Part shown: positions 44,323 to 61,467 of the stretch, piece by piece
Numbering within the stretch: the stretch's first letter is position 1
Layout of the letters: each line of letters starts with the position of its first letter
Assembly: GCF_027923555.1 (NCBI RefSeq)
Contig: NZ_AP025523.1
Coordinates: 248,001-312,000, forward strand
Length of the DNA: 64,000 nucleotides
From: Vulcanimicrobium alpinum
GTDB taxonomy: Bacteria; Vulcanimicrobiota; Vulcanimicrobiia; Vulcanimicrobiales; Vulcanimicrobiaceae
Direction: 5' to 3'
The notes under the pieces: model-generated
Databases searched by the model: none
What the model was told of the DNA's origin: nothing
Seen by the model: the letters and a program-made list of their open reading frames with translations, nothing else
Position numbers and translations under genes: made by a program

Positions 44323-45048
44323 TTAGGGAGCGGCTTCGACGTAGTCGCCGGGCCGCGGGTCTCCGCGTCCGATTATGACGGCTTCGATGTACTTTCCGGT
44401 CGTGCTGGTGACGATCAGCTCGAAGGGCGGCCGCGAGGCGCCGGCGTTGTCGGCGACGCCGCGCAGCACCTGGCTCACGGCGAACGCCGGACCGCGTTCG
44501 ATCAGCACCGTTCCGTTATACACGTTGACGATGCGGGAGAGCGGCTTCACCAGCGGCTGGCGCGCGAGCGCGGCGGTCACCGAACGCTCCCACGTCCGTT
44601 CGGCGTTCGGTTCGAAGTCGCCGCGGGACGCCTCGGAGACCGGATCGCTCTCGAGGTTGACGGTCTTCACCGGCAGCGTCTCGCCGCTGAGGCAGTTGCG
44701 CACGGTGAAGCGCGCGATCCCGTAGGCGCGATCGGTTTCCTGCGCGACGCCCGGCAGCCGCGGCGCGCGGTCGAACGTCGCGAGCACGGCATACACCGCG
44801 TGCGCGGCACGGCAGCGCGCGTCGTCGGCGAGCGTCGTCTCCCCGTCGAAGACGGGGGAACGCACGTCGACGTAATTGGCGACGATCTTGCGCCACAGGG
44901 CCTGCGGCATCTCCGCCTTCGCGCTCTCGCCGACCGTCGCCGTGACGAGCACGGTCGCGGGGTTCGCCGCCGGGGCGGCCGCCGGACGTGCGAGAGCAGG
45001 CGTAAGCGACGCTGCGACAAACGTGGTGACGGCGAGCAGACGAGGCAT
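44323..45048 (-). CDS. Secreted hypothetical protein, 241 aa
   Basis: ATG 45046-45048 (GTG 45054 possible). Signal peptide (LLAVTTFVAASLTPALARPA) followed by a mixed domain with two Cys (DDARCRAAHAVYAVLATFDR, FTVRNCLSGETLPVKTVNLE), which may form a disulfide. The C-terminal part (ERGPAFAVSQVLRGVADNAG, PFELIVTSTTGKYIEAVIIG) is beta-rich. No family is recognised. It is divergent from trxA. Confidence 0.65.
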   Translation of the reverse strand: MPRLLAVTTFVAASLTPALARPAAAPAANPATVLVTATVGESAKAEMPQALWRKIVANYVDVRSPVFDGETTLADDARCRAAHAVYAVLATFDRAPRLPGVAQETDRAYGIARFTVRNCLSGETLPVKTVNLESDPVSEASRGDFEPNAERTWERSVTAALARQPLVKPLSRIVNVYNGTVLIERGPAFAVSQVLRGVADNAGASRPPFELIVTSTTGKYIEAVIIGRGDPRPGDYVEAAP

Positions 45049-45130
45049 GCGCACGGAGGCGACCTTCCGGGTCGAAACCCGCGCTCCTACGACCGGGTCC
45101 GTATGCGATGGAGGTATTCAACCCACTGCC

Positions 45131-45463
45131 ATGAGCGCACTCCCCGACGTTTCCGAGAGCACCTTTCCGACTACGGTGCTCGGGTCCGACAAGCCCGTCC
45201 TGGTCGATTTCTGGGCCCCCTGGTGCGGCCCGTGCAAGATGCTTGCGCCCGTCGTTGAGAAGGTCGCCGGTCAGCTCGGCGGCCAGATGAATTTCGTGAA
45301 GCTCAACACCGACGAAGCGCCGTCGCTCGCCGGTCAGTACGGCGTCTCGGGGATCCCGTGCCTGATCCTATTCAAGGGCGGCAAGGCGGTCGACCGGATC
45401 GTCGGCTTCGTTCCCGAAGCGCAGATCCGCCAGATGCTCGACAAGCATCTGGCCGCGGCCTGA
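45131..45463 (+). CDS. trxA: Thioredoxin
   Basis: 110 residues from ATG 45131. The active site is WCGPCK (VDFWAPWCGPCKMLAPVVEK) and the cis-Pro is in YGVSGIPCLILFKGG. One extra Cys lies next to the cis-Pro. It is a general disulfide reductase. It begins a tight run with selA (8 nt later) and selB. Confidence 0.95.
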   Translation: MSALPDVSESTFPTTVLGSDKPVLVDFWAPWCGPCKMLAPVVEKVAGQLGGQMNFVKLNTDEAPSLAGQYGVSGIPCLILFKGGKAVDRIVGFVPEAQIRQMLDKHLAAA

Positions 45464-45470
45464 CCCGCCT

Positions 45471-46835
45471 CTGAACGACCGCCGCGGCCTGCCGGCCGTC
45501 CACCGGGTTCTCGACGAACCGCGCGTCGCGCGGTTCGTCGTGCTCTTGGGGGCGCCGACGGCGAAGCGGCACGTCGTCGCCGCGCTCGACGCGGCGCGTG
45601 CAGCCGAGGTAACGCCGCCGGCATCCGCCGTCGTGGATGATGCGCTCGTCCGCCTCGCGGGCGAAGCGCAGCGCGGTCTCGTCGGCGTGCTGAACGGCAC
45701 CGGCGTTCTGCTGCACACCAACCTCGGGCGCGCACCGCTCGCCGCGGCGGCGCTCGACGCGATCGCGGCGGCCGCCGGCGGCGCGTCGAATCTGGAGTTC
45801 GATCTGACGACCGGGACGCGCGGCTCGCGCTACGAGCGGCTCGACGCGCTGCTGCGCGCGGTCACCGGTGCGGAAGCGAGCCTCGTGGTGAACAACTGCG
45901 CGGCGGCGGTCCTGCTCGTCCTCGACACCTTCGCGCGCGCGCCCGACGGCTCCGCGCGTGAGGTGATCGTCGCGCGTGGTCAGCTCGTCGAGATCGGCGG
46001 CGGCTTTCGCCTTCCCGACGTGCTCGCGCGCAGCGGCGCGCGGCTCGTCGAGGTCGGAGCGACCAACAAGGTTCGCATCGCCGACTACGCGCACGCGCTC
46101 TCGCCGCGCACCGCGCTGCTGATGCGCGCGCATCCCTCGAACTATCGCATCGAGGGCTTCACCGAAGACGTCACCGCACCGGAACTCGTCGCGCTGGGCG
46201 CGCGCGCCGGCGTTCCGGTGATCGAAGATCTCGGCAGCGGCGCGCTGGAAGATGTGCGTCCGTACGGACTGCCCGGCGAGCGCACCGTCGCCGAAGCGGT
46301 CTCCGACGGCGTCGATCTGGTGACGTTCTCCGCCGACAAACTGCTGGGCGGACCGCAGGCGGGGATCATCGCCGGTCGCCGCGCCGCCATCGCACGCCTG
46401 CGCGCGAACCCGCTGCTGCGCGCTCTGCGCGTCGGGTCGGTGACGATCGCCGCGCTCGGCGCGACGCTGCGCCTGCACGTCGAGGGTACCGTGCGCGAAC
46501 AAATCCCGCTCTACCGCATGCTCGCGACGCCGATCGACGCGCTGCGCGCGCGCGCCGAGGCGCTGGTCGCGCGTGTGGACGGGCTCGATGTGCACGTCGC
46601 GGGACACGAAGGCTACGCCGGCGGCGGAACGCTCCCGCTCGCTCCGCTGCCCTCGATCGCGCTCGCATGGCGGCCCGCGGACGGCGACGTCAATGCGGCT
46701 GCGGCACGCCTGCGCGCCGGCGATCCGCCGGTGGTTGCGCGGATCGACGGCGATGCGGTTGCGATCGACCTGCGCACGATTCCGCCCGCACGCGACGCCG
46801 ACCTCGCGGCGGCGCTGCTCGCCGCCGCGCGCTGA
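45471..46835 (+). CDS. selA: L-seryl-tRNA(Sec) selenium transferase
   Basis: About 454 residues. The N-terminal domain motif (RRGLPAVHRVLDEPRVARFV) lies upstream of any ATG/GTG; CTG 45471 is the best start, 8 nt after the trxA stop, with GTG 45540 as a shorter fallback. Family tracts: VLNGTGVLLHTNLGRAPLAA, SNLEFDLTTGTRGSRYERLD, VVNNCAAAVLLVL and the PLP-lysine motif VTFSADKLLGGPQAGIIAGR. It turns Ser-tRNA(Sec) into Sec-tRNA(Sec) using selenophosphate. Confidence 0.94.
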   Translation: MNDRRGLPAVHRVLDEPRVARFVVLLGAPTAKRHVVAALDAARAAEVTPPASAVVDDALVRLAGEAQRGLVGVLNGTGVLLHTNLGRAPLAAAALDAIAAAAGGASNLEFDLTTGTRGSRYERLDALLRAVTGAEASLVVNNCAAAVLLVLDTFARAPDGSAREVIVARGQLVEIGGGFRLPDVLARSGARLVEVGATNKVRIADYAHALSPRTALLMRAHPSNYRIEGFTEDVTAPELVALGARAGVPVIEDLGSGALEDVRPYGLPGERTVAEAVSDGVDLVTFSADKLLGGPQAGIIAGRRAAIARLRANPLLRALRVGSVTIAALGATLRLHVEGTVREQIPLYRMLATPIDALRARAEALVARVDGLDVHVAGHEGYAGGGTLPLAPLPSIALAWRPADGDVNAAAARLRAGDPPVVARIDGDAVAIDLRTIPPARDADLAAALLAAAR

Positions 46836-46840
46836 ACCCC

Positions 46841-48691
46841 ATGCACGTCGTCGGGACCGCAGGCCATGTCGATCACGGAAAGTCGTCGCTGGTGCAGGCG
46901 CTCACCGGGACCGATCCCGATCGCTGGATCGAAGAGAAACTGCGCGGGATGACGCTCGACCTCGGCTTCGCGCACTTGCGTTTCCCCGACGGGGTCGAAG
47001 CCGGGATCGTCGACGTCCCCGGCCACGAACGTTTCGTGCACAACATGCTCGCCGGCGCGGCGGGGATGGAGCTGCTGCTGCTCGTCGTCGCCGCGAACGA
47101 AGGCGTGATGCCGCAGACGCTCGAGCATCTCGCGATCCTCGCGCATCTCGACGTACGGCGCGCGATCGTCGTGCTCGCCAAACGCGATCTCGTCGACGAC
47201 GCCGAACTCCGCGCGGTCGAGGAGGAGATCCGGGCTGCGCTGGCCTCGACGATCGTCGCCGGCGCCCCGTTCGTCGCCGTCTCGACGCGGACCGGCGAGG
47301 GCGTCGAGACCCTGCGCGACGCGATCCACGACGCGCTCGTCGCGCTTCCCGAGCGCGCATCCGACGCACCGGTCTTCCTTCCGGTCGATCGCGTCTTCGC
47401 GATCTCTGGTCGCGGAACGGTGGTGACCGGGACGCTCGTGCAGGGGACGATCCGCGCCGGCGACACGCTGCAGATCGACGAACCGGCGCGCGAGGTCCGC
47501 GTACGGTCGCTGCAGGTGTTCGGCGAGTCGCGCCAGGCGGTCTCAGCCGGCGCGCGCGTCGCCGTGAACGTCGCCGGTGTCGATGTCGCCGAACTGCATC
47601 GCGGCGCCGTGCTCGCCGATCGCGCCGTCGGGGTCGCAAACGCGATGCGCGTGCGCTTTCGCACCGCGGGCGCGCCGCTGCGCCGGCGGACGCCCGTGCG
47701 CGCGCATCTCGGCGCCGCGGAGATCCTCGGCACGCTGGTCTTCGACACCGCGCCGGCGGCGGAGGAGACGAGCGATGCAACGCTGTTTCTGCGCCGCGCC
47801 GCCGCGACGTATCCGGGCGAGGCGTTCGTCGCACGCGCCCTTTCGCCGAAGGCGCTGCTCGGCGGCGGGACGATCGGGAGCACCGCGACCGCGCAGATCG
47901 GCGACACCGCGCAGAGCGAGCGCGAGACGATCCTGGCCGTGCTCGGCGCGTCGGGTCTCGCGCCGCTGGGTTCGGCGGAAATCGCCGCGCGCGCGAACGT
48001 GCGCGAGGAGCGCGCGGAGGAACTGCTCGCCGAGCTGGCCGCGCGCGGGACGGTGCGGCGTCTGCAGAAGCCCGTCACGTATCTCGGCGGCGCCGCCGCC
48101 GACGAACTGACCGCGCGGATCGCGGCGATCCTCGCGCGTCGCGAGGCTGAGACGCCGTGGGTGCTCGGCGTCACGTCGCTCGCGCTCGCGCGCGAGCTCG
48201 CGGTCGACGAACCGCTGCTGCTCCGCGTGCTCGCCGCCGACGCCGAGGACGGGCGCATCGTCGCGCGAGTCGGATATTACGCGACGCTCGCCCATCGCCC
48301 GCAGTTGACCAGCGAGCAGTACGCGTTCTTCGACCGCGCCGCCGCCGCCGACGCGGCGGCGACGCTCGTTCCGGTCGAGCTCGAGACGCTCGTCGCCGAA
48401 ATCAAGCGCACGAAGATCCCCGGCTTGGGACAAGCCTTCGACACGCTGCTGGCGACCGGCGCGCTGGTGAAGGTCGGCGCCGACGTCTACCGCGGCTCGC
48501 AGATCGCGGAGATTCGCCGCCGGCTCGAGGCGTCGATCCGGCGCGACGGTCCGATCACGATGGCGCGCTTTCGCGACGCGGTGGGGACGACGCGCAAGTA
48601 CGCCGTCCCGCTGATGGAATGGTTCGACGCGACCGGGGTGACGGTGCGCGACGGCGACGTCCGGTCGCTGCGCGGCGCTACGCGACGCTGA
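46841..48691 (+). CDS. selB: Selenocysteine-specific elongation factor
   Basis: 616 residues from ATG 46841, 5 nt after selA. G-domain: GTAGHVDHGKSSL, DVPGHERFVHNML and VLAKRDLVDD (a NKxD variant). Domains 2-3 (VFAISGRGTVVTGTLVQGTI) are followed by four winged-helix repeats for SECIS RNA, with the usual end RFRDAVGTTRKYAVPLMEWF. It delivers Sec-tRNA to UGA codons. No selC tRNA or selenoprotein was found in the window. Confidence 0.95.
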   Translation: MHVVGTAGHVDHGKSSLVQALTGTDPDRWIEEKLRGMTLDLGFAHLRFPDGVEAGIVDVPGHERFVHNMLAGAAGMELLLLVVAANEGVMPQTLEHLAILAHLDVRRAIVVLAKRDLVDDAELRAVEEEIRAALASTIVAGAPFVAVSTRTGEGVETLRDAIHDALVALPERASDAPVFLPVDRVFAISGRGTVVTGTLVQGTIRAGDTLQIDEPAREVRVRSLQVFGESRQAVSAGARVAVNVAGVDVAELHRGAVLADRAVGVANAMRVRFRTAGAPLRRRTPVRAHLGAAEILGTLVFDTAPAAEETSDATLFLRRAAATYPGEAFVARALSPKALLGGGTIGSTATAQIGDTAQSERETILAVLGASGLAPLGSAEIAARANVREERAEELLAELAARGTVRRLQKPVTYLGGAAADELTARIAAILARREAETPWVLGVTSLALARELAVDEPLLLRVLAADAEDGRIVARVGYYATLAHRPQLTSEQYAFFDRAAAADAAATLVPVELETLVAEIKRTKIPGLGQAFDTLLATGALVKVGADVYRGSQIAEIRRRLEASIRRDGPITMARFRDAVGTTRKYAVPLMEWFDATGVTVRDGDVRSLRGATRR

Positions 48692-49886
48692 TCGTCGAAC
48701 GGTAGTCCGGGGCGAAGATCTCCTTGGGGATCATCGCGTGCACGCCGTTGATCACGTTGACCATCTGCGTCACGCGGAAGTCGACGCCGATCGACGCGAG
48801 GCTGTAGGATTCGTCGCGGGTCAGCCCGGCGCGCTCGTGCAGGAACGCGATCGTCTGACGCAGCGCGATCCGCAGCGCTTCGTTCAAGTGCGTGTCCATC
48901 CCCAGCGCGATCCAGTGCGTCGGCGTCTCGGCGAACGGCCACGTCCAGCCGGCGTTCTTGTGGACGATCACCTGCATGCGCACCTCGCGCATCCCGGTCT
49001 CGATCGCGGTGATGTTCACTTCGCCGTCGGCCTGCACCGCGTGTGAGTCGCCGGTGAAGATCAGGGCGCCGGGATGCGTCACCGGGACGAACAGCGACGA
49101 TCCCGCGGTGAGGTCTTTGAGATCGATGTTGCCGCCGAAGCGGCCGGGTGCGACCGAACTCACCGGCACGTCGCCCGCGGGCGCGACGCCGAGCGTCCCC
49201 TGAAACGGCTTGAGCGCGAGCCGGATGCGGTCGTTGAAATAGACGTACCCGTCGTCCGCCGAGAGATCGAAATAGCGGACGTGTCCGTGCGCGAACTCGG
49301 CGTGCAGCGAGCCGGTAACGAGCGCGCCCGGGTTGTGAAAGTTGGCGCCGAAATCGATCGTCTCGAGGCGCAGCATCCGCAGCTGCAGGACGTCGCCCGG
49401 CATCGCTCCGCGTACGAAGATCGGCCCGATGATGCTGTGCACGCCGCGCCCCGGAATCGCGCGCCGCATCGCCGCGAGCGCGTCGGCGCTCACGCCGGGC
49501 TGCAGCCGGTTCGAGAAATGCGTCCAGGTGTTCTCGTAGACGACGACGTCGCCAGAGTCGATCGTCGCGACCGGCGCGGCGTTCGGATCGAAGATCCCCT
49601 GCGCGACCGTGTCGACGGTCGACGGAATGCGGTGCGTGCGTCCCAGCGCGACGGGAGCGCTGGTCGAGGTCCACGTCGTCTCCGCGTCGCCGGTCGACGG
49701 CGACGCCGCCGTCGGGTCGGCGGGCGCGGCGCGTCCGTCGCGCAGCGCTTCGTAGCGCGACTCGATCGCGCCGGCGTCGGACGCGTCGTGCGCGCGCAGA
49801 CGCGCGCGGCGGGCATCGGAGGCCCACGCATCGCGGACCTCGGCGGAGACGCGCGCGATCCCGCCTTCGTCGCTGCAGCCGAACAT
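48678..49886 (-). CDS. Acetamidase/formamidase family protein
   Basis: 402 residues from ATG 49884-49886. Residues ~90-400 carry the FmdA/AmdA fold (FDPNAAPVATIDSGDVVVYE, GRGVHSIIGPIFVRGAMPGD, HVRYFDLSADDGYVYFNDRI, PVTHPGALIFTGDSHAVQAD). The first ~90 residues are an unusual acidic/Ala-rich extension. Family members hydrolyse short amides. It is last in the leftward operon gntR-SAF-amidase, 7 bp after the SAF gene, so its substrate may belong to the 2-hydroxyacyl pathway on the other side. The 3' end overlaps selB by 14 bp. Confidence 0.88.
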   Translation of the reverse strand: MFGCSDEGGIARVSAEVRDAWASDARRARLRAHDASDAGAIESRYEALRDGRAAPADPTAASPSTGDAETTWTSTSAPVALGRTHRIPSTVDTVAQGIFDPNAAPVATIDSGDVVVYENTWTHFSNRLQPGVSADALAAMRRAIPGRGVHSIIGPIFVRGAMPGDVLQLRMLRLETIDFGANFHNPGALVTGSLHAEFAHGHVRYFDLSADDGYVYFNDRIRLALKPFQGTLGVAPAGDVPVSSVAPGRFGGNIDLKDLTAGSSLFVPVTHPGALIFTGDSHAVQADGEVNITAIETGMREVRMQVIVHKNAGWTWPFAETPTHWIALGMDTHLNEALRIALRQTIAFLHERAGLTRDESYSLASIGVDFRVTQMVNVINGVHAMIPKEIFAPDYRSTISVA

Positions 49887-49893
49887 CGCGAAG

Positions 49894-51252
49894 TTAGACG
49901 GCGGCCGCGACGAGCGCGTCCTGTTCGCGGCGCAGTTTCCAGAGGAACGACGACTCGTCGAAGGTGACGTCGGCTTCGCCGATCGGATGGTCGGCCTCGA
50001 CGTCGCGCTGCAGCCGCAACCCGTGCGCGAGCCCCATCGGAACGAGGCGTCGTTCGCGCGCGCGCGCAGCCGGGACGCTGGTGCCGTAGACGGCGTAGCC
50101 GCCTTCGCCGTCGATGATCTCGCCGGCGCGCATCGCGCGCCGCGTCGCGCAGACGACTTCCGCACGATGGCCCGCGAACGGCGCGCCGGTAGGCTCTCCG
50201 CGCAGCGCGACGGACGCCACCGAGACGCCGATCTCCAGCCCGATCAAATGGTACGGACGCCACAGCGCGGTATACCGGCCGCTCTGATCGGTCGACATCC
50301 CGTACTCGCCGAAGCAGCGCTGTGCGTACGCGCTCTCGGAGGTGAACGTCACGTAGACGCCCCAGCGCAGGTGGTTCTCGACGAACGATTCGTCTTCGCG
50401 CACGCACGAGACGACGTCGGCGATCCCGGCGCGCGGCAGAATTCCGCCTTCACTGCGCGGCCGCATCAGCGTCGCCAGATCGTTCACCGAGGCGGGCGCG
50501 AACGTCAGCCCTTCCTCGGCGACGTCCAGCCCCGTGGCATTCGCGACGGCGACCATCTCGATCGCCGACTTCGTCCCGTCGAGAAACGAGTTGAACATCT
50601 TCGGATTGAAGCCGCCGGTCGCGATCTGCTCGGGGGTGAAGCCGTAGTAGCCGAACGCGGTGTCGGGCGTCGAACGCCGGTAGACCGGGGCGAATTTCGT
50701 TCCCTTCCCGGCGGCGACGACCTCGAAGCCGCAGGTGCGCGCCCAGTCGACGAGCTCGCAGATGATCGCCGGCTGATCGCCGTACGCCATCGAGTAGACC
50801 GCGCCGTGCTTGCGCGCGTGCGCGTGCAGCAAGGGCCCGACGACGACGTCGGCTTCCACCGTCACCATCACGACGTGGACGCCGCGTTCGAGCGCGCGAT
50901 AGGCGTGGAGCGCGCCGGCTTCTTCATGCCCGGTCGCTTCGATCAGCACGTCGATCTCGCACGCCGCCGCGACTTCGCCGCTCTCGACGAGCGCGACGCG
51001 CCCGGCGCGCGCCGTGTCGTTCGCCGTGTTCGCGTCGCGCGCGAGCGCGAACGCGTCCGCGCTCCACCCGGCGCTGACGGCGGCTCTGCGCGCGCGCCCC
51101 GCGTCGAGATCGGCGAGGACGCACAGCTGCACGCCGGGCATCAAGCGCAGCTGCGCGAGGATCATCGTGCCGAACTTGCCGGCGCCGACGAGGCCGACGC
51201 GGATCGGACGGCCGGCGTCGTCACGTGCCGCGAGTGCGCGAGCGAGGTTCAT
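49894..51252 (-). CDS. NAD(P)-binding homoserine-dehydrogenase-like protein with SAF domain
   Basis: 452 residues from ATG 51250-51252, overlapping gntR's stop (ATGA). N-terminal Rossmann motif (RVGLVGAGKFGTMILAQLRL) then a dehydrogenase-like domain (EIDVLIEATGHEEAGALHAY, VHVVMVTVEADVVVGPLLHA, SMAYGDQPAIICELVDWART). The C-terminal SAF-type domain contains RAMRAGEIIDGEGGYAVYG. Proteins of this kind occur in carbon-catabolic clusters and their exact reactions are mostly unknown. It is placed to act on an aldehyde or carbonyl product of the neighbouring pathway. Confidence 0.85.
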   Translation of the reverse strand: MNLARALAARDDAGRPIRVGLVGAGKFGTMILAQLRLMPGVQLCVLADLDAGRARRAAVSAGWSADAFALARDANTANDTARAGRVALVESGEVAAACEIDVLIEATGHEEAGALHAYRALERGVHVVMVTVEADVVVGPLLHAHARKHGAVYSMAYGDQPAIICELVDWARTCGFEVVAAGKGTKFAPVYRRSTPDTAFGYYGFTPEQIATGGFNPKMFNSFLDGTKSAIEMVAVANATGLDVAEEGLTFAPASVNDLATLMRPRSEGGILPRAGIADVVSCVREDESFVENHLRWGVYVTFTSESAYAQRCFGEYGMSTDQSGRYTALWRPYHLIGLEIGVSVASVALRGEPTGAPFAGHRAEVVCATRRAMRAGEIIDGEGGYAVYGTSVPAARARERRLVPMGLAHGLRLQRDVEADHPIGEADVTFDESSFLWKLRREQDALVAAAV

Positions 51253-51917
51253 CGTGCGTTCGTCTCCCGAAGGTGGCTGAGGATGCGGTCGCGGCTTAAG
51301 ACGAGGTGACACTCGAGGCGCGCGACGGCGGCCTCGCCGTCGCCGTGCGCGACGGCGCTCGCGATCGCGGCATGATCGTCCCAAATCCCCGGCGGATACG
51401 TTTCGATCTCCAAGTATGCGTGCATCACGCGCATGATCTGCGACCACTGGCCGCCGAGCGCGGCGACGAGGTGCGGGTTGTCGGATGCGGCGGCGAGCTC
51501 GGCGTGATAGTCGCGGTCGAGGTGGAAGAGCGTCGTCAGATCGCCGGCGGCGATCGCGTGCATCGCCTCCTCGCTGCGCTGCTGCGTCGCTTCACGCAAG
51601 TCGGCGTAGCGCTCGGCCGCGCGCCGCAGGGCCAGCGATTCGAGCGCCAAGCGCAGGTCGTAGAGGTCGACGACGTCCTTGGGACCCAGGGGCCGCACGA
51701 TCGCGCCGCGGTTGGGGCTCATCAGCACCAGCCCCTCGCCCTCCAGCCGCCGCAGCGCTTCGCGCAGGGGAATACGGCTGATGCCGAACGCATCCGCGAG
51801 TTCGTCCTGGACGAGACGCTCGCCGGGCCGGTACCGGCCGGTCAGAATCGCCTCCCGGAGGGAGTCGATCACGCCCTCAGAGCGCGTTTCCGGGCTGCGC
51901 GGCTTCATGATGGCCAT
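51249..51917 (-). CDS. GntR-family regulator with FCD domain
   Basis: 222 residues from ATG 51915-51917. Winged helix (DSLREAILTGRYRPGERLVQ, DELADAFGISRIPLREALRR) and all-helical FCD ligand domain with metal-ligand-like residues (HLDRDYHAELAAASDNPHLV, DDHAAIASAVAHGD, LECHLVLSRDRI). FCD regulators sense small carboxylates or acyl-CoA pathway intermediates. The gene sits between two divergent operons, each with a TTGTATACRA operator, so it probably represses both and itself. The ATG is about 5 nt after the -10-like TATACA, suggesting a near-leaderless message. Confidence 0.93.
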   Translation of the reverse strand: MAIMKPRSPETRSEGVIDSLREAILTGRYRPGERLVQDELADAFGISRIPLREALRRLEGEGLVLMSPNRGAIVRPLGPKDVVDLYDLRLALESLALRRAAERYADLREATQQRSEEAMHAIAAGDLTTLFHLDRDYHAELAAASDNPHLVAALGGQWSQIMRVMHAYLEIETYPPGIWDDHAAIASAVAHGDGEAAVARLECHLVLSRDRILSHLRETNAR

Positions 51918-51921
51918 GCGC

Positions 51922-51931
51922 TTGTATACGA
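51922..51931. promoter_or_regulatory. GntR operator O1 (TTGTATACGA)
   Basis: One mismatch from the perfect palindrome TTGTATACAA at 51966. Read leftward it contains TATACA just before the gntR start. Confidence 0.65.
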
Positions 51932-51945
51932 GTTTTCTTCGAGGA

Positions 51946-51974
51946 TTGCCTTTTCTAGCAAAGTATTGTATACA
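51946..51974 (+). promoter_or_regulatory. Promoter of the mutase operon
   Basis: TTGCCT (51946-51951) and TATACA (51969-51974) are 17 bp apart. The -10 lies inside operator O2, so regulator binding would block polymerase. Confidence 0.6.
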
Positions 51975-51975
51975 A
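51966..51975. promoter_or_regulatory. GntR operator O2 (TTGTATACAA)
   Basis: Perfect 10-bp palindrome of the kind bound by FCD-type GntR regulators, centred 44 bp from O1 and 21 bp upstream of the mutase start. Confidence 0.75.
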
Positions 51976-51996
51976 TCTGACAAGGGAGACCGCCTG

Positions 51997-53676
51997 ATGC
52001 AGACGCCCGAGAAAATTCGTTCCGTCGCCGGAGACCGCGAGCAGTGGGAGCAGCTGACCCTGCTGTCGTTCATGGAGCGCCGCCCCGAGGCGCGCCCGGT
52101 GTTCCGGACCCTCGGCGGCCTGCCGCACGAACGCGTCTATACGCCCGAGCACATCGCGCTCGACTACGGCCGCGATCTCGGCTTCCCCGGCGCCTTCCCG
52201 TACACGCGCGGGCCCTACCCGACGATGTATCGCGCGCAGCCGTGGACGATGCGCCAGATCGCCGGCTTCGGGACCGCCGACGACACCAACGCGCGCTTCC
52301 GCTACCTGATCGCGCAAGGGCAAACCGGGATCTCGACCGACTTCGACATGCCGACCCTGATGGGCTACGACTCCGACGACGTGCGCAGCGAAGGTGAGGT
52401 CGGCCGCGAGGGCGTCGCGATCGACAGCGTCGACGACATGCACGATCTCTACGCCGATATCGATCTCGAGAAGATCAGCGTCTCGATGACGATCAATCCA
52501 TCGGCGTGGATCCTCTTCGCGATGTACCTCACCGTCGCCGACGAGCGCGGCTTCGACCGCAACAAGCTCTCCGGGACGATTCAGAACGACATCATCAAAG
52601 AGTACGTCTCGCAGAAAGAGTGGGTCTATCCGCCGCGCCCGGCGATGCGGATCGTGCGCGACTCGATCGTCTACTCGACGCAGAACCTGCCGCGCTACAA
52701 CCCCGTCAACGTCAGCGGCTACCACACGCGCGAAGCCGGCAGCACCGCGATTCAGGAAGTGGCGTTCACGCTCGCGGCGGGGATGGCGTACGTCGAGGAC
52801 GTCGTGCGTGCCGGCGTCGACGTCGACGACTTCGCACCGCGGCTATCGTTCTTCTTCGTCTCTCAGATCGATTTCTTGGAAGAGGTCGCGAAATTCCGCG
52901 CCGCGCGGCGCGTGTGGGCGCGGCTGATGAAGGAACGCTTCGGCGCGAAGAAAGCCGAGTCGATGCGCCTGCGCTTCCATTGCCAGACCGCCGGCGTCTC
53001 GTGCACCGCGCGCGAACCGCTCAACAACATCGCGCGCACCGCGATCGAAGGGTTGGCGGCGGTGCTGGGCGGCGCGCAGTCGCTGCACACCAACGGCTAT
53101 GACGAAGCGCTCTCGATTCCGAGCGAGGCGGCGATGAAGATCGCGTTGCGCACGCAGCAGATCATCGCCGAGGAGACCGGCGTCGTCGGCACGATCGATC
53201 CGCTCGCCGGCTCCTACGCCGTCGAGTCGCTGACGAACCGGATCGAACAAGGGTGCTTCGATTACTTCGCCGAGATCGATAAGCGCGGTGGCGTCGTCAA
53301 GTGCATCGAGGACAACTTCTTTCAGATTGAACTCGCTGACGCGGCGTACGATCTGCATCGCCGCAAGGACGCGGGCGAACGCCACGTCGTCGGCGTCACG
53401 AAGTACCGCGACGACTCGGCGAACCCGCACGTCGAACTGCACCACGTCGACGAAGGCGCCGCAAACCGCCAGCTCGCGCGGCTCGCGAAAACCCGTGCCA
53501 AGCGCGACGGCGCGGCCGTGCAGCGCGCGCTCGACGAGATCGTGCGCGTCGCGCAGACCGACGAGAACATCATGCCCTCGACGCTCGCCGCCGTAAAGGC
53601 GCGCGCGACCGGCGGCGAGATCATCAATGCGCTGCGTCCCGTGTTCGGGACCTACGTCGAGACGCCGGTCTTTTGA
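51997..53676 (+). CDS. hcmA: B12-dependent 2-hydroxyisobutyryl-CoA mutase-type large subunit
   Basis: 559 residues from ATG 51997 with GGGAG upstream. It is the substrate-binding TIM-barrel subunit of the methylmalonyl-CoA mutase family, without the B12 domain. Pocket residues by motif alignment: in QPWTMRQIAGF Ile88 replaces the Tyr (Tyr89) of methylmalonyl-CoA mutase; in GISTDFDMPTLMGYDSD Asp115 replaces Ala; in KEYVSQKEW Gln206 replaces the carboxylate-binding Arg207. These three match Ile90, Asp117 and Gln208 of the Aquincola HcmA. Expected reaction: 2-hydroxyisobutyryl-CoA to 3-hydroxybutyryl-CoA, or a related 2-hydroxyacyl-CoA. Confidence 0.88.
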   Translation: MQTPEKIRSVAGDREQWEQLTLLSFMERRPEARPVFRTLGGLPHERVYTPEHIALDYGRDLGFPGAFPYTRGPYPTMYRAQPWTMRQIAGFGTADDTNARFRYLIAQGQTGISTDFDMPTLMGYDSDDVRSEGEVGREGVAIDSVDDMHDLYADIDLEKISVSMTINPSAWILFAMYLTVADERGFDRNKLSGTIQNDIIKEYVSQKEWVYPPRPAMRIVRDSIVYSTQNLPRYNPVNVSGYHTREAGSTAIQEVAFTLAAGMAYVEDVVRAGVDVDDFAPRLSFFFVSQIDFLEEVAKFRAARRVWARLMKERFGAKKAESMRLRFHCQTAGVSCTAREPLNNIARTAIEGLAAVLGGAQSLHTNGYDEALSIPSEAAMKIALRTQQIIAEETGVVGTIDPLAGSYAVESLTNRIEQGCFDYFAEIDKRGGVVKCIEDNFFQIELADAAYDLHRRKDAGERHVVGVTKYRDDSANPHVELHHVDEGAANRQLARLAKTRAKRDGAAVQRALDEIVRVAQTDENIMPSTLAAVKARATGGEIINALRPVFGTYVETPVF

Positions 53677-54593
53677 TCTCGCACCGGGTGCACCGCGACC
53701 TGGCGCGGGCAATCTCCAGCGTCGAGAACGGGATCGTCGAGCTGCCCGCGGCGCTCGCGCGCCTCGCGCATCTCGGCCACGTCCCGCCGGCGCATCACGC
53801 GGAGGTCATCGGGATCACCGGGCCGCCCGGCGCCGGAAAATCGACGCTCGTCGACCGTCTGATCGAGGGGATCCGCGCCGGCGGCGAGAGCGTCGCGGTA
53901 ATCGCGGTCGATCCGTCGTCGCCGTTCACGCAGGGCGCGGTGCTCGGCGATCGCGTGCGGATGCAGCGGCATGCCGGCGACAACGGCGTGTTCATCCGGA
54001 GCATGGCCTCGCGCGAGGGCGGCGGCGGTCTCGCGCCGGCGACGCGCGACGCGGTGCGCCTCGCCGAAGCGGCGGGGTTCGACGTCGTGATCGTCGAGAC
54101 GGTCGGCGTCGGACAGATCGAACTGGAAGTCGTCGCGGTCGCCGATCAGATCGTCGTCGTCACCGTCCCCGCGCTCGGCGATTCGGTGCAGACGATCAAA
54201 GCCGGGCTCACCGAGATCGCCGACATCTTCGTCGTCAACATGGCCGACCGCCCCGGCGCGAACCGCACCGCGCTCGACCTCAAGCACATGGTGCGCGAAG
54301 GTCAGCGCGACATCCCGGTCCTGCAGACGGTGGCGCAGGACGGCACGGGCGTCGCCGACCTCCTCGCGGCGATCCTTTCGCGCCGCGGCGGCAGCGAGGT
54401 CAACGCCGTGCGCGCCGTACGCTTTGAGGTCGTGCGGCGCGCGCGCGACCGTGCGGTGATCGCGGCGCTTGCTTCACTCGACTCTCCCGACGGCAGCGCC
54501 GTGCTCGACCGCGTGCGCGCCCGCGAACTTTCCCGCAACGACGCGATCGACGCGCTGCTCGCGATCTACGGAGGACCCGTTCATGCCCATTAA
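53673..54593 (+). CDS. meaH: MeaB/ArgK-type G-protein chaperone for the mutase (MeaH-like)
   Basis: 306 residues from TTG 53673, overlapping the mutase stop (TTGA). Walker [21 protein letters not shown], switch region [40 protein letters not shown] and the [18 protein letters not shown] motif are typical of MeaB. These GTPases load adenosylcobalamin into the mutase and rescue it after inactivation. Its location between the two mutase subunit genes ties it to this enzyme. The last 11 bp overlap the B12-subunit gene. Confidence 0.92.
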
Positions 54594-55014
54594 GGTGCTC
54601 GTCGCCAAACCCGGCCTCGACGGCCACGACCGCGGCGCGAAGATCGTCGCGCGCGCCCTTCGCGACGCCGGGATGGAAGTCGTGTACACGGGCCTGCATC
54701 AGACGCCGGAGATGATCGTCAACGCGGCGATTCAGGAGGACGTCGACGTCGTCGGCGTGAGCATCCTCTCGGGCGCGCACATGACGATCTTCCCGAAGAT
54801 CATGGATCTGCTGCGCGAGCGCGAGGTCGACGATATCGTCGTCATCGGCGGCGGCGTGATCCAAGAGCCCGACATTCCGAAGCTCAAGGAGATCGGCGTG
54901 CGCGAGGTCTTCAACGCCGAAGCGTCGACGCAGGATCTGATCGACGGCATCGAGCGGATCGTCGCCGAGTACGGCCGCGACCGCACGCGCCGCGAGGCGG
55001 CCGGGGCGAGTTGA
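54583..55014 (+). CDS. hcmB: B12-binding small subunit of the acyl-CoA mutase
   Basis: 143 residues from ATG 54583 with GGAGG upstream. It is the stand-alone cobalamin domain: DxHxxG as Asp13-x-His15-x-x-Gly18 in [12 protein letters not shown] (base-off ligand His15), then [11 protein letters not shown] and [18 protein letters not shown] that wrap the nucleotide tail. Separate large and small subunits are the rule for 2-hydroxyisobutyryl- and isobutyryl-CoA mutases. Paired with 51997-53676. Confidence 0.93.
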
Positions 55015-56756
55015 CCGCCGCGGCGCCGCTGCGCACCTCGACGGCGAGCGCAGCAGAATACCTGGCGCGCGCGCTGCACGCGCGCGGCGTCCGGCGCGTC
55101 TTCGGGCTCGAAGGCGGCCACGTCCAGCCGCTGTGGGATCACGTCGCGCGCCTGGGCATCGCGATCGTGGACGTGCGCGACGAGCGCGCCGCCGTGCACA
55201 TGGCGCACGCGCACGCGGAACTCACCGGAACGGTCGGGATCGCGATGGTGACGGCCGGCCCGGGCGTGACGAATACGGTGACGGCGGTCGCGAACGCGAC
55301 CACCGCCGGCGTCCCCGTCGTGGTGATCGGCGGAGCGCCGCCGATGCCTCAGGACTACCGCGGTCCGCTGCAAGGGATCCCGCAGGTCGATATCCTCGCC
55401 CCGATCGCGCGCTACGCGCGCACCGTGCGCAACGCCGACCTCGTCGTCGGCGAGCTCGACCGTGCGATCTCCGCGGCCGAGGGCGAGTACGGCGATCGCG
55501 GCGCGAGCTACATCGAGTTTCCGACCGACGTGCTGCGCACCGAGGTGCCGCGCCAGGTCGTGCTCGACGAATTCGTCGCGCCGCGCGCGCCGCGCAGGAT
55601 CGCGCCCGATCCGAGCGCCGTCGCGGCGGCCGTCGAGCGGCTGTGGTCGGTGCGCCGGCCCGTCGTCATCACCGGGCGCGGCGCGCGCGGCGCAGCGAGC
55701 GAACTGCTCGCTCTGCTCGATGCGCTCGGCGCCGTCTACCTCGACACGCAGGAGAGCCGCGGTCTCGTCCCCGAGTCGCATCCGTCGGTCGTCGGCGCGA
55801 TGCGCGGCGCGGTGATGGGCCAGGCCGACGTCGTGATCACGGTGGGGCGCAAGCTCGACTATCAACTCGGCTACGGATCGCCGGCGGTCTTTCCGCACGC
55901 GACGTTCGTGCGGATCGGCGACGGCGTCGGCGAGATCGGCGACAACCGCCGCGGCGCGCCGGAGATCTTTGCGACGCCGGCGCTCGCGCTCGCCGCGATC
56001 GTCGAGGCGGCGCGGGGACGCGCGCCGGCTGCAGACCGTGACTGGGCCGGCGATCTGCGGCGCTCGCACGTCGAGCGCGCGCAGGCCTACGGCGCGAAGC
56101 TGGCGCAGGCGCCGTCGGGCGCCGACGGACGGATGCATCCGAACCGCATCTTCGCGGCGATCCGCGCCTGCGTTCCCGACGACGCGATCGCGATCGCCGA
56201 CGGCGGCGACATCCTCAGCTTCGCGCGGCTCGGTTTGACGCAAGCGACGTACCTCGATTCCGGGACGTTCGGATGTCTGGGCGTCGGCGTGCCGTTCGCA
56301 GTCGCCGCTGCGCTCGCGCATCCCGAGCGCACCGTGATCTCGGTGAACGGCGACGGCGCATTCGGCTTCAACGCGATGGAGATCGACACGGCGGTCCGCC
56401 ACGGCGCGCGCGCCGTCTTCACCGTCGCCAACAACGCGGCGTGGAACATCGAGCGCTACGACCAGATGGTGAACTACGAAGGCCGCATCGCCGGCACCGA
56501 ACTGCGCGACAGTGACTACGCGGGATTGGCGAAGGCGCTGGGCGCGTACGCCGAGCGCGTCGACGACCCGTCCGATCTGGAAGGTGCGCTGCGGCGCGCG
56601 ATGTCGCACGCGCCGGCGCTGCTCGACGTCAAGATCACGCGCGACGCGGTCTCGTCCGACGCCGGGAGAGGCCTGGGGTACGTCCGGCTCTATCAGCCGC
56701 TGACGGCGTGGGACGACGCCGAACGCAAACGCCGCGACGACGGAGGTCTCCGATGA
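55011..56756 (+). CDS. Thiamine-diphosphate enzyme, probable 2-hydroxyacyl-CoA lyase (oxalyl-CoA decarboxylase family)
   Basis: 581 residues from TTG 55011 (TTGA overlap). Pyrimidine domain with activating Glu58 in [19 protein letters not shown], central domain ([20 protein letters not shown]), and diphosphate domain with G-D-G at 447-449 ([20 protein letters not shown]) and the NN of [16 protein letters not shown]. Context argues for a 2-hydroxyacyl-CoA lyase, cleaving e.g. 2-hydroxyisobutyryl-CoA to acetone and formyl-CoA, as described in an actinobacterium. Oxalyl-CoA decarboxylase or an acetolactate-synthase-like enzyme are alternatives. Confidence 0.72.
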
Positions 56757-58207
56757 GCGTCTCGACTGCCGCCGGGCGGATGGAAGCGTGGTCGTTTCCG
56801 CCGCGCATCGACGCTTCGTATATCCCGCCGAACGATCAGCGCTACTGGCATCCCGTCCGCGAGACGATGCCGCCCGACGAGCGCGACGCCGCGATCGCCG
56901 TGCGCCTGCGCGAGGTGATGCGCCACGCGTACAAGAGCTCGGCGTTCTACAAAAAGAAGTGGGACGATGCGGGGATCGACCCAGAGTCGATCCGCTCGCT
57001 CGAGGATTTCGAACGCGTCCCGGTCGTGACCAAGGCGGAACTGCGTGCGTCGCAGGCGGCGCACGAACCGTACGGCGACTACCTGTGCGTCCCCGAGTCG
57101 GAGATCCATCACATCCACGGCACGTCGGGCACCACCGGAAAGCCGACCGCGTTCGCGATCGGACGCAACGACTGGCAAACGATCGGCGAGAACCACGCGC
57201 GCATCCTGTGGGGGATGGGCTTCCGTCCCGGCGACACGATCTTCTTCGGCGCGATCTTCAGCCTGTATTTGGGTTCGTGGGGCGCGATGTCCGGCGCGGA
57301 GCGGATGAAGGCGCGCAGTTTCCCGTTCGGTGCGGGCGCGCAGGGAATGACCGCGCGCGCCGCACAGTGGCTCGCAATGGTGAAGCCCGCCGGCTTCTAC
57401 GGCACGCCGTCGTACGCGCTGCGTCTCGCTGAGGTCGCACGCGAAGAAGGGTACGATCCGCGCGCGTTCGGCCTGCGCACGCTGTTCTTCTCCGGTGAAC
57501 CGGGAGCGTCGATCCCGTCGGTACGCGATCGCATCGAAAACGAGTTCGGGGCACGCGTGATCGACACGGGGACGATGGCCGAGATGACGCCGTTCATGTC
57601 GGCGGCGGGGAGCGCAGAGTCGCACGAAGGGATGCTGCTCTGGCAGGACATGGTCTACCACGAGGTGTGCGATCCCGCAACCTACGCGCGCGTCCCGTAC
57701 GGCGAGCAGGGGACGCCGGTGTACACGCATCTGGAACGGACGTCGCAGCCGATGATCCGGCTGCTCTCCAACGATCTCACGCATTGGGTGATGGAAGAGA
57801 ACCCGTGCGGGCGTACTTATCCGCGGCTGCCGAAGGGCGTCCACGGCCGCATCGACGACATGTTCCAGATCCGCGGCGAAAACGTGTATCCCTCGGAGAT
57901 CGACAACGTCTGCAACGCGATCGCCGGCTACGGCGGCGAGCACCGCATCCACATCAGCCGTGCGCAGACGATGGACGAACTGCTGGTCCGCGCCGAGTAC
58001 GACGCGACGGTCGCCGCCGGCGGCGACGCAGCGATCGCGGCGTTCCGCCGCACGCTCGGCGATCAGCTCCGCAAAGTGCTGGGCGTCGGCGCCAACGTCG
58101 AACCTGTCCCCCCGAACACCTACGAACGCACCGACTTCAAAGCCCGCCGCGTCGTCGACGACCGCGACCTCTACGGCCAAGTCTACCAAAGCACCCACCC
58201 GCACTAA
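56753..58207 (+). CDS. PaaK-type acyl-CoA ligase (adenylate-forming), probably for 2-hydroxyacids
   Basis: 484 residues from ATG 56753, overlapping the previous stop (ATGA) with GGAGGT upstream. The P-loop is HGTSGTTGKPTAF; the hinge and C-terminal domain (RIDDMFQIRGENVYPSEIDN) follow phenylacetate-CoA ligase. N-terminal VMRHAYKSSAFYKKKWDDAG is typical of the PaaK branch. It would activate the free acid with ATP and CoA for the mutase and lyase. The stop is 2 bp before the IS5-type end, so the operon ends here. Confidence 0.85.
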   Translation: MSVSTAAGRMEAWSFPPRIDASYIPPNDQRYWHPVRETMPPDERDAAIAVRLREVMRHAYKSSAFYKKKWDDAGIDPESIRSLEDFERVPVVTKAELRASQAAHEPYGDYLCVPESEIHHIHGTSGTTGKPTAFAIGRNDWQTIGENHARILWGMGFRPGDTIFFGAIFSLYLGSWGAMSGAERMKARSFPFGAGAQGMTARAAQWLAMVKPAGFYGTPSYALRLAEVAREEGYDPRAFGLRTLFFSGEPGASIPSVRDRIENEFGARVIDTGTMAEMTPFMSAAGSAESHEGMLLWQDMVYHEVCDPATYARVPYGEQGTPVYTHLERTSQPMIRLLSNDLTHWVMEENPCGRTYPRLPKGVHGRIDDMFQIRGENVYPSEIDNVCNAIAGYGGEHRIHISRAQTMDELLVRAEYDATVAAGGDAAIAAFRRTLGDQLRKVLGVGANVEPVPPNTYERTDFKARRVVDDRDLYGQVYQSTHPH

Positions 58208-58339: not shown

Positions 58340-59539
58340 TTAGGCTGCTCGTCTGTCTCGTTTTACGGTCGTTGCTTTCCATTCGAAGTATTCGGTCATG
58401 TCGAAGTAGGCTCGGCCTAACCATTCGTCGTTTTGCTCGGAGAGTAGCGCGCCGACCATGCGAATCGCCGCGGCGTCGTTTGGGAAGATGCGAATGACTT
58501 TCTCCCGGCGACGAATCTCTTCATTGAGCCGCTCTTGCATGTTGCTCGTGCGCAGTCGCCGGCGATATTTCTCCGGCAGCGGCAAGATCGCAAGCATGTC
58601 TTCGAACGCTCCTTCCAAGCACACGCACGACTTGGGCGCCGTTTCTGCGAAGCGGGCCATGAATTCCGCATATCGACGCTCGGCCTCTTTGCGATCAGTT
58701 GCGAGGAAGATCAGCCGAGCTGCAGCGGTTACGTTTTCCCGTTCTTTCTTGGGCGTGTGATCGAGCAAGTTCTTCATCACGTGGAACTGGCAACGCTGCC
58801 ACGTCGCGCTGACGAATTGCTTGGCGATCGCCTCACGCAAGCCCGAATGATTGTCGGAGACGGCAACGTCGACGCCGTGCAAGCCGCGTGCTTTGAGGCC
58901 GCAAAAGAACTCGTTCCACGTCGCAAAGCTCTCCGAATCGCCGATCGAAAGACCAAGGATCTCGCGGTATCCGTCAGCACGAATGCCGCTCGCGATGAGC
59001 AGCGCTTTGCTGACGACGCTCTTGTCGGTGCGCACCTTCGTGAAGAGCGCGTCAACGATGATGAATGGGTACGCTGCGTCGAGCCGGCGATTCAAGAATC
59101 CCGCGACCGGTTCGTTGAGTGCCTTCGTAAGGCGACTTACCGTCGATTTCGAAAACGACGTCCCGCAGAGGCCTTCGGTTATCCGCGTGACCTTCCGCGT
59201 CGAGACGCCGTTGACGACCATCTCCATCAGGCCCACGACGAAGGCTTGTTCGCTGCGGCGATAACGCTCGAAGATGTCGGTTGAGAAGCTGCCGTCGCGC
59301 GTCTGCGGCACGCGCAGGACCAGCGAGCCGACGCGGGTCGAGAGCTGTCGATCGCGATACCCATTTCGATAGCCCTCCCGTTCTTCACAGCGCTGGTACC
59401 GCTCGGCGCCCAGATGATCGCGCATCTGTGCCTCGAGCACTTGGTTGAGAATCACTTCGATGAGTTTGCCGAGCGCTGCCGGCTGATCGAGCAAAGCTGG
59501 AATCGCGTCGCGGGATAGGGTAAGATCGTAATCGGCCAC
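58340..59539 (-). CDS. IS256-family transposase, copy 1
   Basis: 399 residues from GTG 59537-59539 (MADYDLTLSRDAIPALLDQP). Mutator-type DDE residues are seen in IIVDALFTKVR, AVSDNHSGLREAI and MQERLNEEIRRREKV. It lacks six residues (AKPAAV) near the C-terminus compared with copies 2 and 3, outside the catalytic core. The frame is intact, but its 5' terminal repeat is now far away (63678), so the copy may no longer move. Confidence 0.92.
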   Translation of the reverse strand: MADYDLTLSRDAIPALLDQPAALGKLIEVILNQVLEAQMRDHLGAERYQRCEEREGYRNGYRDRQLSTRVGSLVLRVPQTRDGSFSTDIFERYRRSEQAFVVGLMEMVVNGVSTRKVTRITEGLCGTSFSKSTVSRLTKALNEPVAGFLNRRLDAAYPFIIVDALFTKVRTDKSVVSKALLIASGIRADGYREILGLSIGDSESFATWNEFFCGLKARGLHGVDVAVSDNHSGLREAIAKQFVSATWQRCQFHVMKNLLDHTPKKERENVTAAARLIFLATDRKEAERRYAEFMARFAETAPKSCVCLEGAFEDMLAILPLPEKYRRRLRTSNMQERLNEEIRRREKVIRIFPNDAAAIRMVGALLSEQNDEWLGRAYFDMTEYFEWKATTVKRDRRAA

Positions 59540-59618
59540 CGTTCCGGTCCTTTCGATTGAGGTGTTGAACAACGTCAATCTTCGAACCGGGGCGGTGGCT
59601 ACCCGCCCGCTCAATTTA

Positions 59619-59626
59619 CATCAATT
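59619..59626. repeat. Target duplication CATCAATT, left (ISL3-type)
   Basis: Repeated at 63670-63677. ISL3-family elements make 8-bp duplications. Confidence 0.88.
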
Positions 59627-59689
59627 GGGTCTTCCGGTTTTGTAGTGGGCGGGCGAGAGGAAATCGGTCGGCCGTCGTAATGCTACGCC

Positions 59690-59993
59690 ATGCGAGACAC
59701 CGAATTCATCCGCGGGTTGCTGCGCGTCGAAGATCCTTGGGACGTGACCGAATCAAAGCTCGATCTCAAGCGAAATCGGGTCGATGTTCGGCTTGAATGG
59801 CAAGGCGCGGGTCGCTGTCCAAAATGCGATCGGGAGTGCCCCAAGCACGATCATCGCGAGCGCGTCTGGCGTGACCTCGATCTGGCCGGCGACCAACTTT
59901 TCTTGCACGCCTCCGTACCCCGGATCGATTGTCCCGAGCACGGCGTCACGACCGTTGCGATTCCCTGGTCAAGCGGTCGCACCGAGTTTACGT
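59690..59993 (+). pseudogene. ISL3-type transposase, N-terminal part
   Basis: ATG 59690. The zinc-ribbon CPKCDRECPKHDHRERVW and the second Cys motif (IDCPEHGVTTVAIPW) are typical of the ISL3 DNA-binding head. The gene is cut after GTTTACGT and continues in frame at 62741; the rejoined protein would be 408 residues and intact. Confidence 0.88.
59986..59993. repeat. Target duplication GTTTACGT, left (IS256 copy 3)
   Basis: Repeated at 62733-62740. Confidence 0.88.
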
Positions 59994-60048
59994 GGCAGAG
60001 TCCCTATAATTGATGTAAATTCAGCGGGCGGGTAGCCACCGCTCCGGT

Positions 60049-60056
60049 TCGAAGAT
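60049..60056. repeat. Target duplication TCGAAGAT, left (IS256 copy 2)
   Basis: Repeated at 61423-61430. Confidence 0.88.
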
Positions 60057-61422
60057 AGTCAAGTCCCAAATCTGCTGTAATTCCGGTTCGTCGATCGCGT
60101 TAGTTAGGCTGCTCGTCTGTCTCGTTTTACGGCGGCCGGCTTGGCCACCGTCGTTGCTTTCCATTCGAAGTATTCGGTCATGTCGAAGTAGGCTCGGCCT
60201 AACCATTCGTCGTTTTGCTCGGAGAGTAGCGCGCCGACCATGCGAATCGCCGCGGCGTCGTTTGGGAAGATGCGAATGACTTTCTCCCGGCGACGAATCT
60301 CTTCATTGAGCCGCTCTTGCATGTTGCTCGTGCGCAGTCGCCGGCGATATTTCTCCGGCAGCGGCAAGATCGCAAGCATGTCTTCGAACGCTCCTTCCAA
60401 GCACACGCACGACTTGGGCGCCGTTTCTGCGAAGCGGGCCATGAATTCCGCATATCGACGCTCGGCCTCTTTGCGATCAGTTGCGAGGAAGATCAGCCGA
60501 GCTGCAGCGGTTACGTTTTCCCGTTCTTTCTTGGGCGCGTGATCGAGCAAGTTCTTCATCACGTGGAACTGGCAACGCTGCCACGTCGCGCCGACGAATT
60601 GCTTGGCGATCGCCTCGCGTAAGCCCGAGTGATTGTCGGAGACGGCAACGTCGACGCCGTGCAAGCCGCGCGCTTTGAGGCCGCGAAAGAACTCGTTCCA
60701 CGTCGCAAAGCTCTCCGAATCGCCGATCGAAAGACCAAGGATTTCGCGGTACCCGTCAGCGCGAATGCCGCTCGCGATGAGTAGTGCTTTGCTGACGACG
60801 CTCTTGTCGGTGCGCACCTTCGTAAAGAGCGCGTCAACGATGATGAATGGGTACGCTGCGTCGAGCCGGCGATTCAAGAATCCCGCGACCGGTTCGTCGA
60901 GTGCCTTCGTAAGGCGACTTACCGTCGATTTCGAAAACGACGTCCCGCAGAGGCCTTCGGTTATCCGCGTGACCTTCCGCGTCGAGACGCCGTTGACGAC
61001 CATCTCCATCAGGCCCACGACAAAGGCTTGTTCGCTGCGGCGATAACGCTCAAAGATGTCGGTTGAGAAGCTGCCGTCGCGCGTTTGCGGCACGCGCAGG
61101 ACCAGCGATCCGACGCGGGTCGAGAGCTGTCGATCGCGATACCCATTCCGATAGCCCTCCCGTTCTTGACAGCGTTCGTACCGCTCGGCGCCCAGATGAT
61201 CGCGCATCTGTGCCTCGAGCACTTGGTTGAGAATCACTTCGACGAGTTTGCCGAGCGCCGCCGGCTGATCAAGCAAAGCTGGAATCGCGTCGCGGGATAG
61301 GGTAAGATCGTAATCGGCCACCGTTTCGGTCCTTTCGATTGAGGTGTTGAACAACGTCAATCTTCGAACCGGGGCGGTGGCTACCCGCCCGCTCAATTTA
61401 CATCAATTATAGGGACTCGGCC
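60057..61422 (-). mobile_element. IS256 copy 2, innermost and complete
   Basis: 1366 bp with both ends, AGTCAAGTCCC at 60057 and GGGACTCGGCC ending at 61422, flanked by TCGAAGAT duplications. It sits in the 5' leader of copy 3 in the opposite direction and is the youngest insertion in the nest. Confidence 0.9.
60104..61321 (-). CDS. IS256-family transposase, copy 2
   Basis: 405 residues from GTG 61319-61321, preceded by AAAGGACC. Same DDE landmarks as copy 1 and a C-terminus VAKPAAVKRDRRAA without the deletion. Both terminal repeats are close and intact, so this copy is the best candidate for an active element. A few scattered substitutions separate it from copy 3. Confidence 0.94.
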   Translation of the reverse strand: MADYDLTLSRDAIPALLDQPAALGKLVEVILNQVLEAQMRDHLGAERYERCQEREGYRNGYRDRQLSTRVGSLVLRVPQTRDGSFSTDIFERYRRSEQAFVVGLMEMVVNGVSTRKVTRITEGLCGTSFSKSTVSRLTKALDEPVAGFLNRRLDAAYPFIIVDALFTKVRTDKSVVSKALLIASGIRADGYREILGLSIGDSESFATWNEFFRGLKARGLHGVDVAVSDNHSGLREAIAKQFVGATWQRCQFHVMKNLLDHAPKKERENVTAAARLIFLATDRKEAERRYAEFMARFAETAPKSCVCLEGAFEDMLAILPLPEKYRRRLRTSNMQERLNEEIRRREKVIRIFPNDAAAIRMVGALLSEQNDEWLGRAYFDMTEYFEWKATTVAKPAAVKRDRRAA

Positions 61423-61430
61423 TCGAAGAT
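61423..61430. repeat. Target duplication TCGAAGAT, right (IS256 copy 2)
   Basis: Matches 60049-60056. Confidence 0.88.
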
Positions 61431-61467
61431 TGACGTTGACAACACTTCAATCGAAAGGACCGGAACG

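Follow-up and report, generated by a model that had tools for sequence, protein, structure and literature searches.

A DXR-II-like oxidoreductase and an acetamidase/formamidase-family protein as accessories at a 2-hydroxyisobutyryl-CoA mutase locus of Vulcanimicrobium alpinum

Introduction

Clusters in which 2-hydroxyisobutyryl-CoA mutase genes (hcm or rcm) lie with genes for MeaB/MeaH, a 2-hydroxyisobutyrate-CoA ligase (HCL) and a divergent GntR regulator have been described from Aquincola, Methylibium petroleiphilum and Xanthobacter autotrophicus Py2; the Methylibium cluster also encodes a lyase resembling 2-hydroxyacyl-CoA lyase (HACL) (PMC7176365). In Actinomycetospora chiangmaiensis the mutase is absent, and HCL is accompanied by HACL, an upstream GntR gene and the mpdB/mpdC dehydrogenases (PMC7176365). 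Mutase-HCL clusters come mostly from bacteria of pristine environments, and what supplies 2-hydroxyisobutyrate (2-HIBA) in nature has been described as not yet identified (PMC7176365). Conversion of acetone cyanohydrin to 2-HIBA by nitrile hydratase (NHase) and amidase is established chemistry (PMC2847961), and 2-hydroxyisobutyraldehyde and 2-methylpropane-1,2-diol are a known precursor pair of the 2-HIBA pathway (PMC7176365).

The families of DXR-II-like oxidoreductases (DLOs) had no known reaction when first described, and those members that were assayed could not rescue a dxr mutant (PMC3847144). We found no later reaction assignment for DLOs in the literature searched. Here we describe an hcm locus that carries a DLO gene and an amidase gene. 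The kind of locus and the DLO family are both known; what is new is their meeting, with the amidase and the DLO as accessories at an hcm locus.

Results

The genome of V. alpinum is a single contig of 3,508,363 bases. The window, i.e., the whole stretch of 64,000 nucleotides analyzed, has a G+C content of 68%, and most of the relatives identified by sequence are labeled Candidatus Eremiobacterota. The locus comprises the following features (window coordinates):

48678-49886, minus strand: amidase of the acetamidase/formamidase family, 402 aa, ATG start, with an N-terminal extension of ~84 aa (PF03069, 97.5 bits; alignment with seven relatives)
49894-51252, minus strand: DXR-II-like NAD(P)-dependent oxidoreductase (DLO), 452 aa (PF21135, 197.7 bits; PDB 3upl/3upy, E 3e-60; predicted fold TM 0.89/0.92 to 3upl)
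51249-51917, minus strand: gntR, GntR/FCD-family transcriptional regulator (PF00392 and PF07729; start from ATG and homology)
51921-51932, unstranded: operator-like site 2, CTTGTATACGAG, directly before the gntR start codon (in 8/8 congeners with a gntR arm, missing in the two without)
51965-51976, unstranded: operator-like site 1, the perfect palindrome ATTGTATACAAT, its center 44 bp from that of site 2 (sole copy in the genome)
51997-53676, plus strand: hcmA, 2-hydroxyisobutyryl-CoA mutase large subunit (TIGR00641, 700 bits; 59% identity to Methylibium petroleiphilum)
53673-54593, plus strand: meaB/meaH, mutase-associated GTPase (TIGR00750, 255.6 bits, above cut-off)
54583-55014, plus strand: hcmB, B12-binding mutase small subunit (TIGR00640, 151 bits, above cut-off)
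55011-56756, plus strand: HACL of the actinobacterial type (NF058623, 996.8 bits, cut-off 600)
56753-58207, plus strand: HCL-like ligase, PaaK-type (TIGR02155, 250 bits, under the equivalog cut-off; 63-68% identity to HCL at proteobacterial hcm loci)

The left operon (48678-51917, minus strand) has the order gntR-DLO-amidase and diverges from hcmA-meaB-hcmB-HACL-HCL. The ATG of the DLO gene (51252) overlaps the gntR stop as ATGA, and the best amidase start, ATG 49886, is 7 nt past the DLO stop at 49894; spacing this tight is typical of one transcript, suggesting that the three genes are co-expressed. Two start sites were revised: the gntR start at 52073 in the raw open reading frame list was replaced by ATG 51917, and a 495-aa amidase reading frame was rejected as wrongly started, as it overlaps the DLO gene.

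The mutase subunits, MeaB/MeaH, HCL and the divergent GntR are common to this locus and the described hcm/rcm-HCL clusters, but those lack both amidase and DLO and differ in gene order. Compared with the A. chiangmaiensis cluster, the mutase is present here, and the candidate upstream enzymes are the amidase and the DLO. HcmA is closer to the mutase of the Methylibium hcm locus (59% identity) than to the two other mutase-family proteins of its own genome (50% and 49%), that is, nearer to known HCM than to MCM, and the genes for the small subunit, MeaB/MeaH, HCL and GntR all lie alongside. Its motifs QIAGFG and FDMPTLMGYDSD are, we assume, the right ones for the substrate-determining residues of HCM. 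Lyases resembling HACL are also clustered with mutase and HCL in Methylibium RPME01 (L115, 12004-13764) and on a haloarchaeal plasmid of Natrinema zhouii (L134, 6704-8389). Within the genus, the HCLs of the two members with HACL (window 55011-58207; L013) are 85% alike, and six members without HACL (L012, L014, L057-L060) have an HCL just ~52% identical. HACL and HCL thus covary as if a lyase-HCL cassette had displaced the original ligase.

In most congeners the hcm locus has a thioredoxin-like gene, selA and selB (window 44876-48691) as its flank and therefore occupies one conserved chromosomal place; G003 retains only part of selB, and the G004 and G010 contigs end before the flank. Just downstream of HCL (window 58340-62685) lie three near-alike transposase genes of the Mutator family and a short reading frame for an ISL3-type zinc ribbon.

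A preliminary description of this DNA had proposed that the leftward genes share a control region with the mutase/lyase operon. Indeed, a single gap of 79 bp (51918-51996) separates gntR from hcmA and contains both operator-like palindromes. Site 1 is perfect in 10/10 hcm-bearing congeners (V. alpinum counted), about 30-38 bp before hcmA. All eight congeners with the gntR arm have site 2 at a center-to-center distance of exactly 44 bp from site 1; G003 and G007, the two hcm-bearing congeners that lack the arm, have no site 2. Mean pairwise identity is 100% and 83% for the sites and 44% for the 32-bp spacer. The sequence TTGTATACAA occurs at one place only in the whole 3.5-Mb genome, and the regulator therefore looks dedicated to the hcm locus; a genome-wide search for the 12-mer with up to two mismatches gave only two further places, no excess over control. 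A sigma-70 promoter scan of the 79-bp gap gave no match. Judging from these sites, one local regulator very probably governs both arms.

We compared the gene content of the hcm-bearing congeners:

V. alpinum: DLO and amidase; HACL present
G008: DLO and amidase; HACL absent
G010: DLO and amidase; contig ends inside hcmA
G005: DLO, amidase absent; HACL present
G006: DLO, amidase remnant on a separate contig; HACL absent
G004: DLO truncated by the contig end; HACL absent
G001: amidase only; HACL absent
G009: amidase only; contig ends inside hcmA
G003 and G007: neither DLO nor amidase; gntR arm absent

Hence every gntR arm has one or both genes, and DLO, amidase and HACL vary independently. The gntR-DLO pair, the gntR-amidase pair or both adjoin hcmA in 8/10 of these genomes, and intact DLO and amidase genes were found in the genus beside hcm only. 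The G006 remnant (L107, 6732-7288, on C263) has a large internal deletion and lies away from the hcm locus. Neither gene was seen at 12 hcm loci from the rest of the phylum (further genera, families and classes), some on incomplete contigs, or at seven from other phyla (three genomes of the Caenispirillum phylum and four plasmids). Co-occurrence with hcmA thus holds across congeners and fails outside them: the arms are adjacent in the genus, and the hcm loci sampled beyond it are without both genes. We conclude that the association is real but genus-restricted, as far as sampled. With conserved sites and repeated adjacency, the placing of the leftward genes as an arm of the hcm regulon is well supported at the sequence level.

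The oxidoreductase had been called a homoserine-dehydrogenase-like SAF protein. The likeness is confined to its NAD-binding domain (PF03447, 28.7 bits), whereas the catalytic domain is DRL_cat (PF21135). At E<=0.001 there was no match to a SAF model of Pfam, and the SAF label fits by family alone (PMC3847144). Brucella DXR-II (3upl/3upy) was the only solved structure matching by sequence. The AlphaFold model (mean pLDDT 91) superimposed on 3upl as listed above, and homoserine dehydrogenase was ruled out as the identity of the whole protein (fold TM 0.43-0.44, compared with 0.89 for DXR-II). The DRL_cat domain and the fold place the protein in the DXR-II-like oxidoreductase superfamily.

Identity to Brucella DXR-II is 33%. 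Residues E174, K191, K193, R320 and Y322 (DXR-II numbering) are kept, K191/K193 being the substrate-binding lysine pair, but T229, H250 and V351 are replaced by Ser, Thr and Arg. In DXR-II, Thr229 is absolutely conserved and His250 is present in all but four members; position 229 is Pro, Ser or Ala in DLO2 (PMC3847144). Because these diagnostic residues differ, an ordinary dxr gene is present elsewhere in the genome and the DLOs assayed failed to complement dxr, we assign the protein to the DLOs and not to DXR-II; by its residues it is DLO2-like at position 229. It had been suggested that the protein may represent a new step; its family is uncharacterized but had already been described (PMC3847144).

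Whereas DXR-II and DLOs have isoprenoid or sugar genes as partners, the partner of this operon is 2-HIBA catabolism. The genes next to related DLOs (47-72% identity) encode sugar/TRAP transporters, PhyH together with hydantoinase B, or an acid-sugar kinase; the DLOs at 66-72% identity lie beside the acid-sugar kinase or the PhyH dioxygenase. In G015 and, judging by the start of the sequence, also in G049, the neighbor is a DUF1537 (SBD_N/NBD_C) kinase. On plasmid pMTH1 of Paracoccus methylutens (L100, 3246-8367), a DLO gene is found with divergent GntR, aldehyde dehydrogenase and 3-hydroxyisobutyrate dehydrogenase genes.

The amidase belongs to the acetamidase/formamidase family (97.5 bits against a PF03069 cut-off of 27) and has the core of FmdA/AmdA proteins (PDB 2ii1, 2f4l, 3tkk, 5ubu) with motifs GGN-D, GD-HA and DGE intact. 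Unlike these, it scores far under the FmdA equivalog cut-off (55.7 bits vs. 500) and carries a conserved extension ahead of the core. The unusual N-terminal extension of ~90 residues noted earlier is real, at ~84 aa, but is a subfamily trait and not specific to the hcm locus: the amidases at the hcm loci of four congeners have it, with MFGCS at its start and the run W-x-ST-x-x-PV-x-LGR at its end, and so do three relatives elsewhere; being common to both groups, it marks an amidase subfamily. The relatives off hcm (58%, 58% and 44% identity by tblastn) lie beside an MFS transporter gene (G017), near an AMP-ligase/enoyl-CoA hydratase run (G028) and among other genes (G039). A wrong-start artifact was tested and ruled out for the 402-aa form, and so was a fused known domain, as profiles matched the PF03069 family only. 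In the AlphaFold model, pLDDT is about 30 over residues 1-73 (mean 54.5, too poor for a fold search); the extension is probably disordered.

The genome also encodes an NHase alpha subunit (255.4 bits; equivalog cut-off 249.85), which did not match the thiocyanate hydrolase model at its threshold. As in the acetone cyanohydrin route (PMC2847961), an NHase and an amidase are thus both available, encoded by the same genome as the 2-HIBA pathway; here, however, the NHase gene is far from the amidase gene (contig positions 3312381 and 296678, G000:C1). NHase was found in 5/5 congeners with an amidase at the hcm locus and in 4/6 without, and given the latter the co-occurrence is not significant.

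Discussion

We tentatively favor a combined model, somewhat short of probable, in which the left arm supplies a 2-HIBA catabolic locus that is under local regulation. Site conservation suggests that the two TTGTATACAA-like sites, spaced by 44 bp, are bound by the GntR/FCD regulator, which would control both directions. The free acid would be released by the amidase from 2-hydroxyisobutyramide or a closely similar 2-hydroxy-2-methyl amide; HCL would activate free 2-HIBA to the CoA ester; and HcmAB would isomerize 2-hydroxyisobutyryl-CoA to 3-hydroxybutyryl-CoA, or HACL would cleave it to acetone and formyl-CoA. Acetone cyanohydrin could supply the amide through NHase. That an amidase might free a 2-hydroxyacid from its amide had been proposed; this is plausible, the NHase gene gives it some weight, and a 2-hydroxy-amide may be the substrate.

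The DLO might work on the diol/aldehyde side, interconverting 2-hydroxyisobutyraldehyde and 2-methylpropane-1,2-diol, since the second half-reaction of DXR-II, R-C(OH)(CH3)-CHO to and from R-C(OH)(CH3)-CH2OH, fits this pair with R = CH3; we regard this as conceivable but rather unlikely. It is more doubtful still that the DLO is a reductoisomerase/dehydrogenase using alpha-ketol chemistry of the DXR-II type to interconvert acetoin, 2-hydroxyisobutyraldehyde and 2-methylpropane-1,2-diol, giving, together with amidase/NHase, two natural entries to 2-HIBA.

A co-regulated arm of broader scope is a serious possibility: the amidase would be a generic short-amide enzyme releasing ammonia, the DLO would act on acid sugars or polyols, and 2-HIBA would be one inducer of several. 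Elsewhere, DLO genes do share clusters with genes for sugar/TRAP transporters, aldolases and kinases, or adjoin a DUF1537 kinase gene, the amidase relatives occur in unrelated catabolic neighborhoods, and both genes were gained and lost independently in the genus. However, the perfect operator occurs once in the genome, as if the regulator were dedicated, and the confinement of intact DLO and amidase genes to hcm loci in the genus points the same way.

That the amidase is a formamidase clearing formamide, or that it acts in some other way on the lyase's formyl product, as had also been proposed, appears improbable. The family name would suit it, and HACL yields formyl-CoA (PMC7176365), but the low FmdA score speaks against it, and amidase occurs without HACL in G001 and G008 and HACL without amidase in G005; this independent variation weakens the role. 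To our knowledge, there is no route from formyl-CoA to formamide. That the arms are neighbors by chance, with no common regulation, is very unlikely: the case for sharing is read from DNA, yet the fixed two-site architecture (8/8) and the adjacency repeated in eight genomes are hard to reconcile with chance. We scarcely credit a working DXR-II producing MEP for isoprenoids, since, despite the fold and family common with the Brucella enzyme, T229, H250 and V351 are replaced, Ser229 is reported for DLO2, the genome has an ordinary dxr and complementation of a dxr mutant by assayed DLOs failed (PMC3847144).

On the supply-arm reading, the left arm may feed in 2-HIBA, hinting at a natural source of the acid. 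With a dedicated amidase beside the mutase and NHase in the genomes, nitriles and amides become a concrete, testable answer to the origin of 2-HIBA. The locus also gives one DLO member a testable context and a short substrate list; if the DLO and amidase/NHase readings are both true, the phylum would have two natural entries to 2-HIBA. On an Agrobacterium deltaense plasmid (L133, 3507-5771), an MFS transporter gene and one for a glycoside hydrolase of family 3 adjoin the hcm cluster, an arrangement that would fit a glucoside source, e.g., linamarin.
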